Shown one piece after another: positions 23,198 to 30,608 of a stretch of 50,867 nt of DNA (its first letter is position 1; every line of letters begins with the position of its first letter). Made by a program: the position numbers and the translations under genes. The stretch comes from a bacterium (GTDB taxonomy: Bacteria > Krumholzibacteriota > Krumholzibacteriia > JACNKJ01). Location: contig VGXI01000004.1 in assembly GCA_016873475.1 (NCBI GenBank), forward strand, positions 1-50,867. The letters run 5' to 3'. The notes below the pieces were generated by a model. That model did not search any database, had not been told where the DNA came from, and saw only the letters and a list, made by a program, of their open reading frames with translations.

Positions 23198-24628
23198 ATG
23201 ATCCGCAGCGCCCGCCTCGCCGCCTCAGCGCTCTCGATCCTTTCGGCCCTCGCGGCGCCGGCCACGGCGCAAGATGATGGCGGTCTTGCAAAAATCCAGC
23301 GCCTCGAGGGCGGTCGGTACCGCCTCGAAGTCGGCGCGGCCAGCCTCGCCCTGCTCGGGCCGGGGATCGCGAGCCAACTGGGCAGCGTGGCCCCCGTCTA
23401 TCCCGGGCCGGGACGCCAGCTCCACAACCCGGCTCTGCTCGGCATGCTGCGCCGCCCGCTCTTCGCGGCGGATCTCGCGCCCCCCCTCGAGCTGGACCTG
23501 GGCGCCCGCCTCGACCTCGACGAGCGGCTCCGCGACGAGACGAACGCGCTGCTCGCCGACCAGATGGCCGAAGACGGCCTTCTCGTCGCGAGCCGCGGCG
23601 AGGCGGCGGTCCGGCACCCGGGCGGCCTCAGCGCGGCCGGTCTCGCGCTGCCCGGTCGCCACGGCGCGCTCGCCCTCGCCATCGACGCGCCCTTCCGGCT
23701 GGACCTCGACCTGCTCGCCACCGGCATCCAGGCCTGGGCCGACATCGAGAAGACCGTGGGCGAGGAGACGGAGATCGTCGCCCTGCGCGCGGATCTCGAC
23801 GCCGCCCTGCGCCTCGCCCTCCACGCCCGCCGCTACAGTCTCGCCGTCGGCAGCGAACTCGCGCCCGGCTTCTGGCTGGGCGCCGGCCTCGACTGGCTGG
23901 CGCTGAGCGCGCGCGTGGACGCCCTCGCCGACACCGAGGGCGTCATGGCGACCAACGGCCGCGAGTTCAGCTTCGGCGATCCGGAGGACCCCTGGGAGAA
24001 CTCCCTGGATCAAGAGCTCACGGGCGACTACGCCGGCCAGGGCTGGACCCTGCGCGGCGGCCTGGGTTGGCGGCCCTTCTCGCGGCTGGCCATCGGCCTC
24101 GTCTACCAGCGCACGCCCTCGCTCACGCTCGCCGGCGAGGCCGCGCTCTCGCTGCGCCGCCTCGCCGCCTACGCGGACGGCGGCATCGATCCCAGCCAGC
24201 TCTCGCTCTCCCGGCCGACCGAGACGGTGGCCGTCGCGAGCCCGGTGGACGACGCGATCGCCGTCGAGCTGCCGAGCAGCCTCAGCCTCGGCCTCGCCGG
24301 CTTCCTCGGTCCGCTCACGCTGACCCTGGACGGCAGCCTCTTCCAGGGCGACCTGCGCGTCGCCTACCTCGACGCCGCCGGAAGTCTGCGGCCCGCCGGC
24401 CTCGCCAAGCTCGGCCTCGCGACCGGGCCGCTGGCCCTGTCGGCCGGCGTGCTGCTCGTGCGGCCCCGCCTCAGCCTCGACGGCGAGACGGAGAGCCTCG
24501 ACCCGCTGCCCCTGCCGCTGCTCGGCATCGGCGGCGGCTGCCGCTTCGGCCAGCACCTGCGCCTGGACGCTGCGCTCGGCGCCGCGCCCCTGCCCTCTCT
24601 GCGGCTCAGCGCCGCGTTGCTCCTCTAG
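23198..24628 (+). CDS. Outer-membrane beta-barrel protein
   Basis: The 476-residue protein has a signal peptide (MIRSARLAASALSILSALAA, cleaved near ATAQ) and then alternating amphipathic strands with paired glycines and aromatic girdles, for example GFWLGAGLDWLALSARV, WTLRGGLGWRPFSRLAIGLVYQ and TLTLDGSLFQGDLRVAYL. It ends in a barrel-like LRLSAALLL. It resembles the FadL/PorV-like barrels of FCB bacteria; the cargo is unknown. GGAAGGAG lies about 9 bases before the ATG. It heads an operon with a giant repeat protein and a second barrel, so export or surface anchoring of the repeat protein is a plausible role. Confidence 0.75.
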   Translation: MIRSARLAASALSILSALAAPATAQDDGGLAKIQRLEGGRYRLEVGAASLALLGPGIASQLGSVAPVYPGPGRQLHNPALLGMLRRPLFAADLAPPLELDLGARLDLDERLRDETNALLADQMAEDGLLVASRGEAAVRHPGGLSAAGLALPGRHGALALAIDAPFRLDLDLLATGIQAWADIEKTVGEETEIVALRADLDAALRLALHARRYSLAVGSELAPGFWLGAGLDWLALSARVDALADTEGVMATNGREFSFGDPEDPWENSLDQELTGDYAGQGWTLRGGLGWRPFSRLAIGLVYQRTPSLTLAGEAALSLRRLAAYADGGIDPSQLSLSRPTETVAVASPVDDAIAVELPSSLSLGLAGFLGPLTLTLDGSLFQGDLRVAYLDAAGSLRPAGLAKLGLATGPLALSAGVLLVRPRLSLDGETESLDPLPLPLLGIGGGCRFGQHLRLDAALGAAPLPSLRLSAALLL

Positions 24629-24645
24629 GACCGCCGGAGATGCCC

Positions 24646-27600
24646 ATGCCCAGCTCGCGCACCGCCTGCCTCGCCGCCTGCCTCGCGCTCGCGGCCGCCG
24701 CGCCCGCCGCAGCCGGCGACCTCCACCCGACGAGCCTGCCCCAGGGTCTCCTCGCGCAGACCGACAGCGTGATCATCGCCTGGTCCGAAGCCCTGCGCTG
24801 CCAGCTGGAGCTGGGACCCGCGCCGGATGCCCTGTCGCCCCTGGCCGGCGCGGCTGGCGGTCCGGGGCGCCTGGCCTTCGTGCCCGCGGCCCTCGGTCTG
24901 GGCGCGGGTGTCTGGGCCGCGCGCCTGGTCAGCCTCGACGGCGAGAGCAGCAGCCTGCCCTTCACGCTCATCGTCGAGTCCGCGACGGCGCCCAACCTGA
25001 TCGCCCCGGGCAACGGCAGCGAGCTCGAGCCCGGGGGCGTCCAGCTGCGCTGGGAGCCCGTGCTCGGCGTTCCTTACTATCACGTGCTCTTCAGCGACCA
25101 GGAGATCCTCATCGAGGAGAACGCCGAGGGCGACCCGGTGATCGTCGGCGCCTCCTTGATCTGGCAGGCGATCACCCCGAGCACCGCCATCGCCTACGGC
25201 GCCGCCGATCCCAGCGGCGTCTTCACGGCCCCGAATGGCAATGCGCCGCCCCTGGTCGCCGGACCCGAGTACAACTGGCTCGTCCTCAACAACTACGGCA
25301 ACAACCCGGCCCTGACGAGCACCCGCCAGGCCGGGGTGGCGGCCTTCCGCATCGCGCTGCGCGCCGGTCTCGCGGCGCCGGAGCTGCTCGCGCCGGCGGC
25401 CGGCGACAGCCTCGCCGCCCCGGCCCTCGAGTTCGCCTGGACTGTCGCAACGGGCGCGTCGCACTACCAGTTCACCCTCACCCGCATCGTCGACGAAGAC
25501 GGCAACGAGGGCGCGGTGAGCGTCTTCGAACAGGTGACGAGCCAGACCCAGCTCAGCCTGCCGGCCGCCGATCTCCTCGTCGACTCGCGCTACCGCTGGA
25601 AGGTCTACGCGCTCGACGCCACGGGCCAGGGCGCCGCGAGCAGCCCGCGCGAGTTCCACTACCGCGTCGCCATGGGTCAGGTGACGCTCTACACGCAGGA
25701 CGGCCACGGCCAGCCCCTCCCCTACGTGCAGGTCGTCCTCACCCCGCTGGGCGGCGGCGGCAGCGCGCTGCCGGTGATCACCGGCAGCAGCGGCGGCTGG
25801 GAGGAGGAGCTCGTCGCCGGGGCCTACCGCGTCGAGGCCAGCAAGGGCGGCCACGAGACCGCCAGCGCCGAGTTCTCCCTCGACGCGAACGGCACCTGCG
25901 AGCGGGTGCTCGTGCTGCCCGCGAGCCCGGCCACCCTGGCCGGCGGCGTGCGCGACACTGCCGGCCAGCCCTTCGCCCATGCCCAGGTTCGCGCGCGCAA
26001 CCTGCAGACGGGCGAGCTGCGCCTGGCCACGAGCACGGCCGGTGGCGCCTTCTCGCTCGGCGTGACCCCCGGCCAGTGGGGCCTGCGCGCCACCGCCGCG
26101 GGCTACCAGAGCGCCGACAGCCTGCTCCTCAGCGCGCAGGCCGGCGCCTACCAGACGCTGCCGGCGCCGCTGCACCTCGCCCCCAGTGCCTGCTCGCTCG
26201 CCGGCAGCGTGCGGAACACCGGCGGCCAGCCGATCCTCGCTGCCACGGTGACCGTCGCCGGCGCGGAGGGGAGCCAGAGCGCGCTCACGGGCGCCGACGG
26301 CAACTTCCAGTTCAACCTCGCTGCCGGCAGCTGGACGCTGACGGCGAGCAAGCCCGGCTACGTTCCGCCGGCGCCGCGCCCGATCAGCCTCGCGCCTGGC
26401 CAGCAGCTGAGCCTCGCGCCCCCGCTCGGCCTGGACGCCCAGGCGGCCATCCTCAGCGGCTACACGCGCGGGGCCGCGGGTGTCGTCGGCGGCGCGCTCG
26501 TCACGGCAACGCCGGCGAGCGGACTGCCGCGGGCCGTCACCGCGAACGCGCAGGGCGCCTGGCTGCTCAGCCTGCCGGCTGGTACCTGGACGCTGACGGC
26601 AAGCAAGGCCGGCTACAGCGGCGCCGCGCCCCTGCAGCTCACCCTCGCCGCCGGCGCGGAGCAGAGCGGCCTCGCCCTTCTGCTGGTCGCCGATCCCTGC
26701 GCCGTCAGCGGCCAGGTCACGGACGGGACCCAGCCGCTGGCGGGGGCCACGGTCAGCGCCGGGGCGGCCACCGCCACCAGTGCCTGGGACGGCGGCTTCA
26801 GCCTCACCCTCGCTGCTGGGGAACACCGGCTCGAGGCCTTCCGCACGGGCTACACGAGCGCGGCGGTGCTCCTGAGCCTGGCGTTGGGGCAGACCGTGAA
26901 CGGGGTTGCGCTCGCCCTCACGCCCGGCGCCGCCACGGTGAGTGGCCGCGTGTTGGCGGAGGGAGCGCCGGTGGCCGGGGCCCTGCTGCAGCTCGCGGGC
27001 CCGGCGTTCACCGCCGAGCGCACGAGCGGCGCCGCTGGCGACTTCGCGATCAGCGCTCCGCCGGGCGCCTACACCCTCAGTGCGAGCAAGAGCTGCTTCA
27101 TCGCCGGCGCGCCCCTCGCCCTCACGCTGGCCGCCGGGCAGACCCTGCCGGGACAGGACCTCCTCCTCACGCCCGCCGGGGCGCGGCTCGCCGGACGCGT
27201 GGTGGTCGCGGGCAGCGGCGCCGCACTCGGCGGCGCGCTGCTGGCGGCCGCCTCCGCCCAGGGCGACTTCACGACCAGCAGCGCGGCCGACGGCAGCTGG
27301 GCCCTGCTCCTGCCGGGCGGCCAGAACTGGGCGCTGAGCGCGCTGAAGAGCGGGCACGCCACCGCCACCGCGCAGACTCCCTTGCTCGCCGATGGCAGCG
27401 CCTGGAGCGGCGACTTCGCGCTCAGCCCCCAGGCCGCAGCGCTTGGCGGCTGCGTGCGCGACGAGAGCGGCCTCGCCCTGGCGGGGCTGCGCATCGCGCT
27501 GCGGCCGAGCGCAGGCGACAGCCTGCAGTGCCTGACGGACGCCGCCGGCCGGTATGCCTTCGCCTGCGCGACGGGCCCGGCGACCCTCAGCGTCGGCGCC

Positions 27601-29667
27601 CCGGGCTACGCGCCCTACAGCAGCGCGCTCGCCCTGCCGGACGGCGCGAGCAGCCTGGACATCGTCCTCGACGCGCGCTTCGCGCGCCTCGCCGGCAGCA
27701 TCCGGGATGGCGAAGGCGCGCCGCTGGCCGGGGTCCTCCTCACGGTGAGCGGCGCCGCGAGCGGGTCGGCGCTCAGCGACGCGACTGGCGCCTTCCTGCT
27801 GCCGCGTCTCCTGGCCGGCGCCTCGACCCTCAGCGCCAGCAAGCTCGGGTACGCGCCGCTCAGCCAGAGCCTCGCGCTCGCCGAGGAAGAGGACGCTGCG
27901 CTGTCCCTTGCCCTCGAGCGCCTGCTCGGCACGCTCGCGGGGCGCGTGCTCGATTCCGCGGGCGCCGGCCTGGGCGGCGCCAGCCTGCAGCTCCGGGCGG
28001 GCGCGGCGCTCGTCGCCCAGACGCTCAGCGCGGCGAACGGCGACTTCGCGCTCGGCGGCCTGGACCCGCTCGCGCCGCTGGATCTCTATCTCAGCCTGGC
28101 CGGCCACTCCGTCCTCGGCGGCAACCCGCTGCGAGACCTCCTGCCGGGGGGCGAGCCGCTCCTGCTGCGGCTCGTCCCGGACGATGGCCGGCTGCGCGGC
28201 AGCCTGACCAGCGCGACTGACGGCGCGCCCGTCGCCGGCGCCCTCGTGAGCGCGGTCGACGGCGCCGGGGTCTACGCCGAAACGCGCAGCGATGCCGGGG
28301 GCGCCTTTGCGATCGGCGCCCTGCCGCGCGCTTCGCTCTACACCCTGCACGCCGACGGGCCCGGCTGGGCGGCACTCAGCGTCGCCGGCCTCGCGCCCGA
28401 CGGCGCGCCGCTCGCCCTCAGCCTCGAGCCGGCCGGCGCGACCGTCTACGGCAGCCTCGTCGCCGACACTCCGGGCAGCGGCCGGCTGCCGCTCGGCAGC
28501 GCGCTGCAGGCCATCCCCGCCGAGGGCGGTCCCCTGCGCGCGCTCGCGCTGAGCGCCCTGGGCGAGTACAGCCTCGAGGCGCTGCCGCCCGGAGACTTCC
28601 TGCTGGTCTGCCGCGTCGACGGCTGCCTGACGCTCCCGCGCCAGCAGAGCGTGCGCGTCGACGAAGGCCAGGTGCTCGGTCCCTATGACTTCGAGTTGGT
28701 GCCGACTCCGCTCGCGAGCCTCGCGATCAGCGGCCTCGAGGAGCTCGAGGGCGGCCAGAGCGCGATCTACCAGGGCGCGCAGCGGGCTGCCGACGGCGAG
28801 TCGCTGGACTACCCGCTCATCTGGAGCCTGGAGCCGCCTGGCGCCGGCACCTTCGATACGGCCAGCGGCCGTTTCGCGGCGCGCGCCGACTTCCTGGGCA
28901 CCGCCACGCTGCGCGCTCGGCATGCGGCCAGCGGTCTCGGGGCCGCACGCGCGGTCACCGTCGGCGCCCGCCTGACACCGCAGACGGCGCGCGCGCTGGA
29001 CGACGGCGCCGGCCTGCGCCTGCGCGTGCCTGCGGGCGCTCTCGGCCAGGCGACCCGCATCGGCCTGCGGCGCGAGACGCCGACGCCGCTCAAGCGGCGC
29101 GCCGGGAGCTATCGTGTTGAGGGCGAGCTCTACCGCTTCCTCCCCAGCGGGCTCGCGTTCGCGGACAGCGCGCAGCCGACTCTAACGCTGCCCGTTCCCA
29201 ATCCGCTGTTCAACGAGCGCCTCGCGCTGGGCTGGTGGGACCCGAGCGGCCTCGCGTGGACGGCGCTGCCGGGCACGAAGGGCACCCAGGGGCTCAGCCG
29301 CGCGCTGGCGCACTTCTCCGATTACGCTCTGCTCGTCGCCAACGCGCCCCTCGGGGTCGGCGAGGCTCGACTCTCCGCGAATCCCTTCAGTCCGGCCCTC
29401 GCTCCCCTCGAGCTGCGCTTCACGGTGAGCAGCCAAACGATGGCCGCACCCCTCGTCGACGTGGAGGTCTTCAACCTGCTCGGCGACCCCGTGTGCCGAC
29501 TCCTGCGCAGGCAGGCCCTGGCCGTCGGCGTCGAGCACAGGCTCGCTTGGGACGGCCTCACACAGGCCGGCGAGCTGGCCCGGAACGGCCGCTACCTGCT
29601 GCGCATCCGCGTCGAGGACGGCGGCGAGGCAGCCGAGCGCATCCTGCAGGTCGTCCTGGTGAAATGA
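24646..29667 (+). CDS. Giant secreted protein with 12 carboxypeptidase-regulatory-like repeats
   Basis: The 1673-residue secreted protein has a signal peptide (TACLAACLALAAAAPAAAG), then FN3-like domains (about 30-340; PELLAPAAGD with AFAWT-type strands), about 12 tandem carboxypeptidase-regulatory-like beta-sandwich repeats of about 84 residues (about 343-1353; motif G-x-V-x-D-x-x-G-x-P-L-A-G-A, then TLTASKxGY), an Ig-like domain with ISGLEELEGGQSAIY, a ZU5-like segment ending HFSDYALLV, and a C-terminal FlgD-type Ig domain (EVFNLLGDPVCRLL, AWDGLTQAGELARNGRY). Such C-termini occur on surface proteins of FCB lineages. Of two ATGs, 24646 has better spacing from GGAG. Probably an adhesin or cell-surface stalk; no catalytic domain seen. 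Confidence 0.85.
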   Translation: MPSSRTACLAACLALAAAAPAAAGDLHPTSLPQGLLAQTDSVIIAWSEALRCQLELGPAPDALSPLAGAAGGPGRLAFVPAALGLGAGVWAARLVSLDGESSSLPFTLIVESATAPNLIAPGNGSELEPGGVQLRWEPVLGVPYYHVLFSDQEILIEENAEGDPVIVGASLIWQAITPSTAIAYGAADPSGVFTAPNGNAPPLVAGPEYNWLVLNNYGNNPALTSTRQAGVAAFRIALRAGLAAPELLAPAAGDSLAAPALEFAWTVATGASHYQFTLTRIVDEDGNEGAVSVFEQVTSQTQLSLPAADLLVDSRYRWKVYALDATGQGAASSPREFHYRVAMGQVTLYTQDGHGQPLPYVQVVLTPLGGGGSALPVITGSSGGWEEELVAGAYRVEASKGGHETASAEFSLDANGTCERVLVLPASPATLAGGVRDTAGQPFAHAQVRARNLQTGELRLATSTAGGAFSLGVTPGQWGLRATAAGYQSADSLLLSAQAGAYQTLPAPLHLAPSACSLAGSVRNTGGQPILAATVTVAGAEGSQSALTGADGNFQFNLAAGSWTLTASKPGYVPPAPRPISLAPGQQLSLAPPLGLDAQAAILSGYTRGAAGVVGGALVTATPASGLPRAVTANAQGAWLLSLPAGTWTLTASKAGYSGAAPLQLTLAAGAEQSGLALLLVADPCAVSGQVTDGTQPLAGATVSAGAATATSAWDGGFSLTLAAGEHRLEAFRTGYTSAAVLLSLALGQTVNGVALALTPGAATVSGRVLAEGAPVAGALLQLAGPAFTAERTSGAAGDFAISAPPGAYTLSASKSCFIAGAPLALTLAAGQTLPGQDLLLTPAGARLAGRVVVAGSGAALGGALLAAASAQGDFTTSSAADGSWALLLPGGQNWALSALKSGHATATAQTPLLADGSAWSGDFALSPQAAALGGCVRDESGLALAGLRIALRPSAGDSLQCLTDAAGRYAFACATGPATLSVGAPGYAPYSSALALPDGASSLDIVLDARFARLAGSIRDGEGAPLAGVLLTVSGAASGSALSDATGAFLLPRLLAGASTLSASKLGYAPLSQSLALAEEEDAALSLALERLLGTLAGRVLDSAGAGLGGASLQLRAGAALVAQTLSAANGDFALGGLDPLAPLDLYLSLAGHSVLGGNPLRDLLPGGEPLLLRLVPDDGRLRGSLTSATDGAPVAGALVSAVDGAGVYAETRSDAGGAFAIGALPRASLYTLHADGPGWAALSVAGLAPDGAPLALSLEPAGATVYGSLVADTPGSGRLPLGSALQAIPAEGGPLRALALSALGEYSLEALPPGDFLLVCRVDGCLTLPRQQSVRVDEGQVLGPYDFELVPTPLASLAISGLEELEGGQSAIYQGAQRAADGESLDYPLIWSLEPPGAGTFDTASGRFAARADFLGTATLRARHAASGLGAARAVTVGARLTPQTARALDDGAGLRLRVPAGALGQATRIGLRRETPTPLKRRAGSYRVEGELYRFLPSGLAFADSAQPTLTLPVPNPLFNERLALGWWDPSGLAWTALPGTKGTQGLSRALAHFSDYALLVANAPLGVGEARLSANPFSPALAPLELRFTVSSQTMAAPLVDVEVFNLLGDPVCRLLRRQALAVGVEHRLAWDGLTQAGELARNGRYLLRIRVEDGGEAAERILQVVLVK
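25672..28705 (+). repeat. Twelve-unit beta-sandwich repeat array
   Basis: About 12 units of about 250 bases encode the carboxypeptidase-regulatory-like domains. Units share the ASKxGY strand and a closing LxLxP motif but are diverged in sequence, so the array is old rather than recently amplified. Confidence 0.8.
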
Positions 29668-29684
29668 CGAGGAGGCCCCACGCC

Positions 29685-30608
29685 ATGCTCGCCTACGGAA
29701 CCTTGCGGCGCGGCGTCGCCGCGTTCGCTTTCCTGCTTGCGCTCGCGCCGGCCGCGCGCGCCGGCCAGAGCGCCCTGCCCGGCGCCTTCGCCGACATCGG
29801 CCTCAGCGCCCGCGCGATGGGCATGGGCGGCGCCGCGGCGGCCGGCTTCGGCCGCGCCGCGGATCTCAGCGGCAATCCCGCAGGGCTCGGCGGCCTCGTC
29901 CGGCCCGAGCTCTCCGCGCTGCAGACCGAGCAGTTCGGCCTCGTGCCGACCTACTACCTCGCCGCGGCGCGCCGCCTCGGCGGCGCCGGCTTCGGCCTCG
30001 GCCTGCTGTCGAGCGGCGACGCGCTCCTGCGCGAGAACACGCTGCTGATTGCCGGCGGCCGTCCCCTCGGCGACGGCCGCTTCGGCGCGCTCGCGCTCGG
30101 GCTGGCGCTCAAGCTGCGCCACGCCGCCTTCGGACCGGAGGGCGATCTACCGGGCATCGAGGGCAGCGCCTACGGGGGCGCCATCGACCTGGGTCTCCAG
30201 CTCCGGCGCGGCAGCGCCCGCTACGGGCTCTTCGTGGAGGAACTCGCCAGCGACCTGCGCTGGCAGAGCAGCGGCCTGGGCGCCTATCACGAGGGCGTGC
30301 CGCCGACGCTGCGCGCGGGCCTCGGCGTCGACGCGGGCGCCCTCAGCCTCGCCGCAGACCTCGAAGTCGCCCTCGAGGCCGAGCGCGCGCACAAGGCGGC
30401 CCTCGGCGTCGAGTGGCGGCCGCATGCGGTGCTCGCGCTGCGCGGGGGGCTGAGCCAGCGCCTCGCGACCCAGGAGCAGCGCTTCCTCAGCGCCGGCCTC
30501 GGTCTGGGCGCCGGCCTCGAGGGCGGCCGTCGCTTCCAGTTCGACGCCGCCTATCTCTTCCACGAACTCGGCGGCAGCCTGCGCCTGGAGGCCGCCCTCC
30601 TGCTCTAG
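29685..30608 (+). CDS. PorV/UPF0164-like outer-membrane barrel protein
   Basis: The 307-residue protein has a signal peptide (GVAAFAFLLALAPAARA) and then FADIGLSARAMGMGGAAAAG plus DLSGNPAGLG, the hallmark opening of PorV/PorQ-like (UPF0164) barrels, which in Bacteroidetes hold type IX-secreted proteins at the outer membrane. Later strands include AGFGLGLLSSGD and LRGGLSQRLATQEQRF. AGGAGG lies 9 bases before ATG 29685; an ATG at 29664 inside the previous stop is a poorer choice. Placed after the FlgD-ended repeat protein, it is a candidate anchor for it, which is inference. Its stop shares CTAG with the regulator gene. Confidence 0.82.
   Translation: MLAYGTLRRGVAAFAFLLALAPAARAGQSALPGAFADIGLSARAMGMGGAAAAGFGRAADLSGNPAGLGGLVRPELSALQTEQFGLVPTYYLAAARRLGGAGFGLGLLSSGDALLRENTLLIAGGRPLGDGRFGALALGLALKLRHAAFGPEGDLPGIEGSAYGGAIDLGLQLRRGSARYGLFVEELASDLRWQSSGLGAYHEGVPPTLRAGLGVDAGALSLAADLEVALEAERAHKAALGVEWRPHAVLALRGGLSQRLATQEQRFLSAGLGLGAGLEGGRRFQFDAAYLFHELGGSLRLEAALLL

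Follow-up and report, generated by a model that had tools for sequence, protein, structure and literature searches.

A three-gene operon that may form a type IX secretion cassette with its own PorV-family barrel

A 50,867-nucleotide stretch of a Krumholzibacteriota genome (hereafter 'the window') carries an operon in which the gene for a giant secreted protein (G) is flanked by genes for a FadL-fold outer-membrane barrel (B) and a divergent homologue of PorV (V). We consider it fairly probable that the three genes make up a self-contained type IX secretion cassette, built for one cargo, G, and equipped with V as a private carrier and anchor. The anatomy of the genes, their homologies, the presence of core type IX genes, the co-occurrence of the trio and the separate clade formed by V were all computed. 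We take V to be the private carrier of G, and its anchor, because the genetic layout is that of type B cargo systems, and the families of the C-terminal domain (CTD) and of the carrier are those of type A.

Organization of the operon

The window lies on contig C4 of a 3.6 Mb host genome (425 contigs) and has a G+C content of 73.6%. B, G and V share one strand and stand alone as a three-gene unit, with opposite-strand genes on either side (Table 1). The extent originally predicted for a barrel/giant/barrel operon, 23198-30608, is right. B and G are separated by 11 bp and G and V by 17 bp, the latter gap becoming an overlap of 4 if V starts at 29664. That start would give V 314 residues and overlap the stop codon of G; a start at 29685, which follows an AGGAGG sequence and yields 307 residues, is more likely, and either form ends at 30608. 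G may begin at ATG 24640 (1675 residues) or at ATG 24646, the latter matching the 1673 residues first assigned to it, and ends at 29667. Signal peptides are predictions made by eye, and a scan of the region for promoters and terminators returned nothing above chance.

Table 1. Genes and protein regions of the operon, with positions in the window
Feature	Positions	Strand	Basis or description
B, FadL-superfamily outer-membrane barrel with HNPA motif	23198..24628	+	476 aa, predicted signal peptide
G, secreted multidomain protein, predicted signal peptide	24640..29667	+	Pfam and full-length orthologues
G N-terminal part (residues 27-346), Ig/FN3-like	24718..25677	+	Alignments A5, A9; Pfam Ig_Rha78A_N, E 1.5e-4
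G stalk (residues 345-1355), 11-12 CarboxypepD_reg (transthyretin-like) repeats	25672..28704	+	PF13620, 11 stretches, E 5.9e-115
G pre-CTD region, Ig-like (1356-1443) and ZU5-like (1444-1568) domains	28705..29343	+	AlphaFold2 model
G CTD, seven-strand domain ending VVLVK, a putative type-A-like sorting signal for type IX secretion	29344..29667	+	Profiles and predicted fold
V, PorV-family barrel with NPAGL motif	29664..30608	+	NF033709, PorV profile match

The head of G is strongly conserved across phyla in the two alignments, and a profile search of the PDB with this region gives Ig/FN3 chains as weak matches only. The 12 regulatory-like sandwiches initially recognized in the stalk are consistent with its Pfam annotation. 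In the predicted structure of the region preceding the CTD, fold comparison (VIA) matches LigA (Z 12.4) and the ankyrin ZU5 domain (Z 11.9). Full-length orthologues of G occur in two other genera of the same family, and relatives are present in other phyla. In these two genera the orthologues of the operon are 43-57% identical and keep the same gene order. Among the 35 loci whose open reading frames (ORFs) have both ends, the length of G ranges from 1631 to 3164 residues.

In KSB1, G is divided into two genes at five loci and lies in pieces at one more. The five divided loci (L175, L179, L183, L185 and L190) carry a head gene of about 1400 residues, then a gene of about 2250 residues with a strong CTD, and then V. 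Some of the head genes have a weak CTD match of their own.

Recurrence of the trio across phyla

Searches with a model of B (alignment A2) located 77 loci, distributed among KSB1 (46), the phylum of genome G081 (15), Cloacimonadota (12) and the phylum of the host (3), with one locus (L113) unplaced. The original prediction was to be abandoned if type IX core genes were lacking and the trio was found nowhere else; core genes are present, as described below, and B, G and V stand side by side at 52 of the 77 loci. Because 23 of the others are cut by a contig end, this amounts to 52 of 54 assessable loci. The two exceptions are L153 (G113:C139), which has B and G without V in a genome that holds a second, complete cassette, and L157, where B accompanies a broken G. 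Recurrence of the trio across phyla rules out chance or a local oddity as its origin.

The genes are mostly ordered B-G-V, and 11 KSB1 loci have the order G-V-B. When seven G-V-B loci were read further upstream, G was whole in six, and in the seventh (L248) it runs to the edge of the stretch; among nine upstream stretches, those at L253 and L254 gave no match. One of the 23 cut loci (L195) has B at the first base of its contig and nothing downstream, which fits the G-V-B order.

The frequency of the cassette varies among phyla. In the host phylum, B occurs in 3 of 80 genomes, the same three have full-length G, and all three have the trio. B was found in 35 of 82 KSB1 genomes below an E-value of 1e-40 (46 loci, 11 genomes having two), in 11 of 124 Cloacimonadota genomes below 1e-30 (12 loci) and in 15 of 20 genomes of the G081 phylum. 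Weaker B matches were dropped from these counts; at E 0.001 the tallies were 47/82 for KSB1 and 20/124 for Cloacimonadota. Four sequences in the query alignment for B come from these phyla (one from Cloacimonadota, two from KSB1 and one from that of G081), and the genomes that supplied them match by construction. A direct hmmsearch, without the first filter of the genome scan, recovered 44 of 44 KSB1 loci. The 11 KSB1 genomes with two B loci (e.g. G113, G112 and G153) have G proteins of differing length, which suggests that they carry paralogous cassettes.

A separate contig search with G found seven relatives, titled Krumholzibacteriota (1), KSB1 (2), Cloacimonadota (1) and simply 'bacterium' (3, one being G003 of the same family as the host). 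This search missed most of the loci found later, and its lack of Bacteroidota therefore says nothing about absence there.

Across all genes flanking the 52 complete loci, no families but G, B and V recur in three or more phyla. The next flanking family reaches 7 loci in 2 phyla, and no conserved neighbour beyond the trio offers a clue to function. This clustering used coarse gene picking, and its B and V clusters cover 48 and 39 of the 52 loci, respectively. Mirror-tree correlations among B, V and parts of G are high (r 0.77-0.89 over 41 loci); they are not counted as evidence because shared descent alone yields such values.

Type IX secretion genes in the host and in other trio genomes

The link to type IX secretion that was proposed from the window is supported by the rest of the host genome. 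SprA/Sov scores 381 bits in a genome search and 514 bits as a protein, against a cut-off of 200. A PorU sortase on contig C20 reaches 429 bits (cut-off 420), and it adjoins a PorV_fam protein of 193 bits (cut-off 90) that attains 124 of the 250 bits set for the PorV equivalog model. The genome also gives 13 matches to C25 peptidases and 35 to Por_Secre_tail. SprA exceeds its cut-off in seven of seven genomes reached through trio loci, two of those loci (L110 and L113) showing just B and G before the contig end, and in three relatives without the trio. For the motor and ring (PorK/L/M/N), the analysis covered GldM (TIGR03517); this search found no match in the host genome and none in 14 control genomes either, and is thus uninformative. 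Beside the PorU-PorV pair (L061:3-779) lies the start of a protein that resembles an inactive M6 protease dependent on type IX secretion (E 2.4e-10).

V, a PorV-family barrel apart from the general PorV

The proposal that the second barrel is PorV/PorQ-like holds in terms of family. V matches the NCBIfam PorV/PorQ model NF033709 (PorV_fam) at E 2.8e-9, with 37 bits against a curated cut-off of 90, and its relatives match the same model in six of six cases (best 4e-28). A profile of V finds PorV, chain F of the solved translocon 6h3i, at E 2.4e-7, and an NPA motif lies near the N-terminus in 51 of 52 V ORFs. Judged from these sequence matches, V is a divergent PorV homologue that falls short of being filed as PorV; among the eight PorV_fam matches in the host genome it is the weakest.

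In a phylogenetic tree, the 52 cassette V proteins and the seven other PorV homologues of the host fall into two separate sets with support of 100/97. The branches are long, and because the profile used to gather V had been trained on cassette V, this monophyly is partly by choice. The part of the result that is independent of this bias is that the V of the window groups with those of other phyla, apart from the PorV proteins of its own genome. Six of the eight host PorV-family genes (C4, C20, C204, C5, C84 and C105, as opposed to C83 and C200) lie directly downstream of a CTD gene, with the reservations that the CTD neighbour on C20 is PorU, which is in the training set of the profile, and that the CTD score on C204 is weak (E 1.2e-5).

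The strongest of the competing explanations is that G is an ordinary type IX cargo, which the general PorV would export and PorU would process, and that V and B merely lie nearby and perform unrelated work such as hydrophobic uptake. The host does have a general PorV beside PorU, and B has the fold of FadL, with an NPA motif in many members, canonical FadL being reported to move hydrophobic molecules (PMC12611786). We nevertheless regard this explanation as unlikely, given that nearly all assessable loci in four phyla keep the trio through two gene orders, that other neighbours are never kept across more than two phyla, that V forms its own clade, and that most PorV-family genes of the host follow a CTD gene.

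Several other PorV-family loci of the host have arrangements of their own. The C200 protein (L067:856-1908) has the NCBIfam model PorV2 as its closest (125.6 bits of 325) and has no adjoining CTD gene. Another PorV-family barrel (L066:2420-3670) has a C-terminal FlgD_ig domain of its own (E 1.6e-6), an arrangement that looks like a fusion of carrier and CTD. On C84 (L065:3683-7533), the gene preceding the PorV-family gene encodes a CTD protein that contains seven TSP3 repeats. On C5 (L063:4782-12399) and C105 (L066:3-9508), a CTD gene and a PorV-family gene precede same-strand genes for ExbB, two ExbD proteins and TonB. These could represent a proton-driven motor linked to export of the PorV type, in a genome that gave no GldM match.

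The C-terminal domain of G as a candidate sorting signal

Profile tests used the last 108 residues of G and of five relatives from other genera or phyla (n=6). All six members matched FlgD_ig and also FlgD models; five matched the PorU model at its tail, four each matched CHU_C (a type IX signal) and TIGR04183, and two matched PF18962 (Por_Secre_tail). The FlgD-type C-terminus first noticed in G was recovered weakly in the protein of the window itself (Pfam FlgD_ig, E 0.0044); in the test of the CTD, FlgD_ig scores 19.3 bits against a curated cut-off of 27. Among the matches listed for the window CTD are FlgD_ig, one DUF, FlgD models and the PorU tail, with TIGR04183 and PF18962 absent there. 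A profile of 14 CTDs from the host genome, from which G was left out, finds the end of G at E 2.4e-10; it was built from CTDs of C25 proteases and other proteins, and its training set includes PorU of C20.

An AlphaFold2 model of the end of G, made with six sequences, has a pLDDT of 88.4 and comprises Ig-like, ZU5-like and seven-strand domains. The last of these has the seven-strand Ig-like sandwich that characterizes type A CTDs, and among solved structures it matches the Porphyromonas gingivalis PorU CTD best (6za2; VIA Z 11.8, rmsd 2.5 over 99 residues, 24% identity). Of the 52 cassette CTD proteins, 48 end in K and 51 have a W[DSN]G motif in their final 60 residues. In a PDB search with the CTD profile, the top matches are WD-40 repeat and designed propeller chains, which we read as artefacts because none of their single stretches passes by itself; FlgD and PorU come below them.

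The best reading of these profiles and of the predicted fold is that the G CTD is a type-A-like type IX sorting signal with a putative role in export, and the earlier suggestion that the FlgD-type end might be such a signal is supported to this degree. From the likeness to the PorU CTD and from the precedent of type B cargo, it can be argued by analogy that the domain would stay uncleaved. That G is no type IX cargo at all, its end being a mere Ig domain and its release or anchoring taking another route, is very unlikely: FlgD_ig is not confined to type IX systems, FlgD chains too are matched by the CTD profile, and FlgD models match every member tested, but the domain is terminal in complete loci, resembles the CTDs of host C25 proteases as well as TIGR04183 and the PorU tail, has the PorU CTD as its best solved match, and belongs to genomes that all have SprA where reached through trio loci.

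B, a predicted FadL-type barrel

G was thought from the outset to lie between two outer-membrane barrels, and this is borne out for B by its predicted structure and for V by PorV homology. The AlphaFold2 model of B (pLDDT 77.8, pTM 0.74) most resembles FadL (VIA Z 26.5), chain B of the Flavobacterium johnsoniae BAM complex (26.3) and CymD (25.8), followed by PorV of 6h3i (22.9-23.0). In sequence, aligned residues are 10-18% identical between B and BamG, FadL or TodX. The Pfam model Toluene_X matches weakly (E 0.0028, four of eight members). Close to the N-terminus, 37 of the 52 B ORFs show an NPA motif and some show HPA; some of these ORFs are partial or over-extended. On the strength of the model, B is predicted to be a FadL-type barrel with an N-terminal hatch.

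Resemblance to the BAM complex raises the prospect that the operon encodes an assembly scaffold, in which B would act as BamG, the subunit of the Bacteroidota BAM complex that has the FadL fold, and G as a canopy-like extracellular part comparable to BamH or BamM. BamG is reported to bind an elongated surface protein (PMC12611786, PMC12578637), and BAM chain B gives the tightest superposition of the top matches (rmsd 3.0 over 334 residues). However, about 1 Z is all that separates the FadL, BAM and CymD matches; BamG is reported from nearly all FCB phyla (PMC12611786), as against 3 of 80 genomes for B in its own phylum, counted with the model that recovers 44 of 44 KSB1 loci; and BamH is a lipoprotein, whereas G has a putative type IX CTD and two close orthologues of G are without a lipobox by eye. 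This distribution rules out B as the core BamG, and we consider the scaffold explanation as a whole very unlikely. Within the cassette that we favour, B may be a second tether for the head of G (the boldest reading), a BamG-like helper or a channel for hydrophobic solutes.

A model for secretion and anchoring of G

Research on F. johnsoniae provides the framework for the proposed mechanism. Type A CTDs are reported there to be taken from SprA by loops of PorV and to leave CTD first (PMC10994853), and one PorV serves all of them (PMC12618676). Type B cargo is described as requiring a PorP/SprF shuttle that is usually cognate, is needed in stoichiometric amount and is thought not to be recycled (PMC12618676); such cargo has been found bound to PorP/SprF, which stays on as its anchor (PMC9143113). 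The CTDs of PorU and PorZ are reported to remain uncleaved on PorV and PorQ, respectively, and it has been proposed that cognate PorV-like barrels protect CTDs from cleavage (PMC10202324). Because the type A CTDs of F. johnsoniae use one PorV, PorZ/PorQ is the only tested precedent that we found for a private PorV acting on a type-A-like CTD.

In the proposed mechanism, G, B and V would pass through the inner membrane by Sec, as their predicted signal peptides indicate, and B and V would fold into the outer membrane. The C-terminal Ig domain of G would then enter the SprA pore as a type-A-like CTD, where V, rather than the general PorV beside PorU, would take it. By leaving SprA sideways, V would draw G out CTD first. 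The CTD would remain uncut and be kept on V as a permanent one-to-one anchor, in the way reported for PorU with PorV, for PorZ with PorQ and for cargo of type B with PorP/SprF. G would then stand as a long surface rod of transthyretin-like domains with its Ig/FN3-like head outward, and B, being always present, may be a further partner in the membrane for G or V.

Comparison with known systems

The closest parallels in layout are the PorP/SprF shuttles (SprB-SprF and PG1035-PorP), in which a CTD cargo, often a large adhesin, is encoded beside a FadL-family barrel that acts as carrier and anchor. The cassette differs from these in its barrel, which belongs to the PorV rather than the PorP family, in its type-A/PorU-like CTD and in the constant presence of a second barrel with the FadL fold. 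The attachment-complex pairs PorU-PorV and PorZ-PorQ are similar in that the CTD is reported to be uncleaved on the barrel, and the CTD of G is most like that of PorU. However, G lacks a peptidase domain, and the host has a separate PorU-PorV pair on C20.

V is homologous to PorV, the general type A shuttle (NF033709; PDB 6h3i chain F), but forms a separate clade, scores below curated cut-offs, is shorter (307-314 residues) and is linked to one cargo. B shares the fold of BamG, FadL and TodX but is patchy in distribution and tied to G and V. The NCBIfam families PorV2 and PorU2 (NF052325 and NF052324) likewise include PorV-family proteins outside the general pair, but the C200 protein fits PorV2 better than does V, which reaches 22.6 bits of 325.

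Among open-licence PMC papers, our literature search turned up the work on type B cargo and the idea about PorZ and PorQ. It found the cassette described nowhere, in agreement with the initial impression that no system with this exact trio had been described. Nor did we find, in the same collection, a paper joining Krumholzibacteriota with type IX secretion.

Implications

A bolder version of the model would have V hold the uncleaved CTD of G while B holds the head, so that a rod whose transthyretin-like domains number from 12 to perhaps 25 would be tethered at both ends as a surface arch, and would extend to these deep FCB phyla the principle of one private PorV homologue per type-A-like CTD cargo, in place of a single general PorV. 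We offer this version tentatively and think it rather improbable in full.

The current rule, drawn from F. johnsoniae, has type A CTDs share a single PorV and reserves private PorP/SprF shuttles for type B CTDs. The cassette occurs in at least four phyla and is near-universal in one of them (15 of 20 genomes). Its composition suggests that private PorV-family shuttles exist also for type-A-like CTDs, which would extend the pairing shown for type B CTDs. As a natural cargo-carrier pair, it makes testable the idea that a CTD can be shielded from PorU (PMC10202324). For lineages known mostly through metagenomes, the proposed rod would offer a first concrete surface structure.
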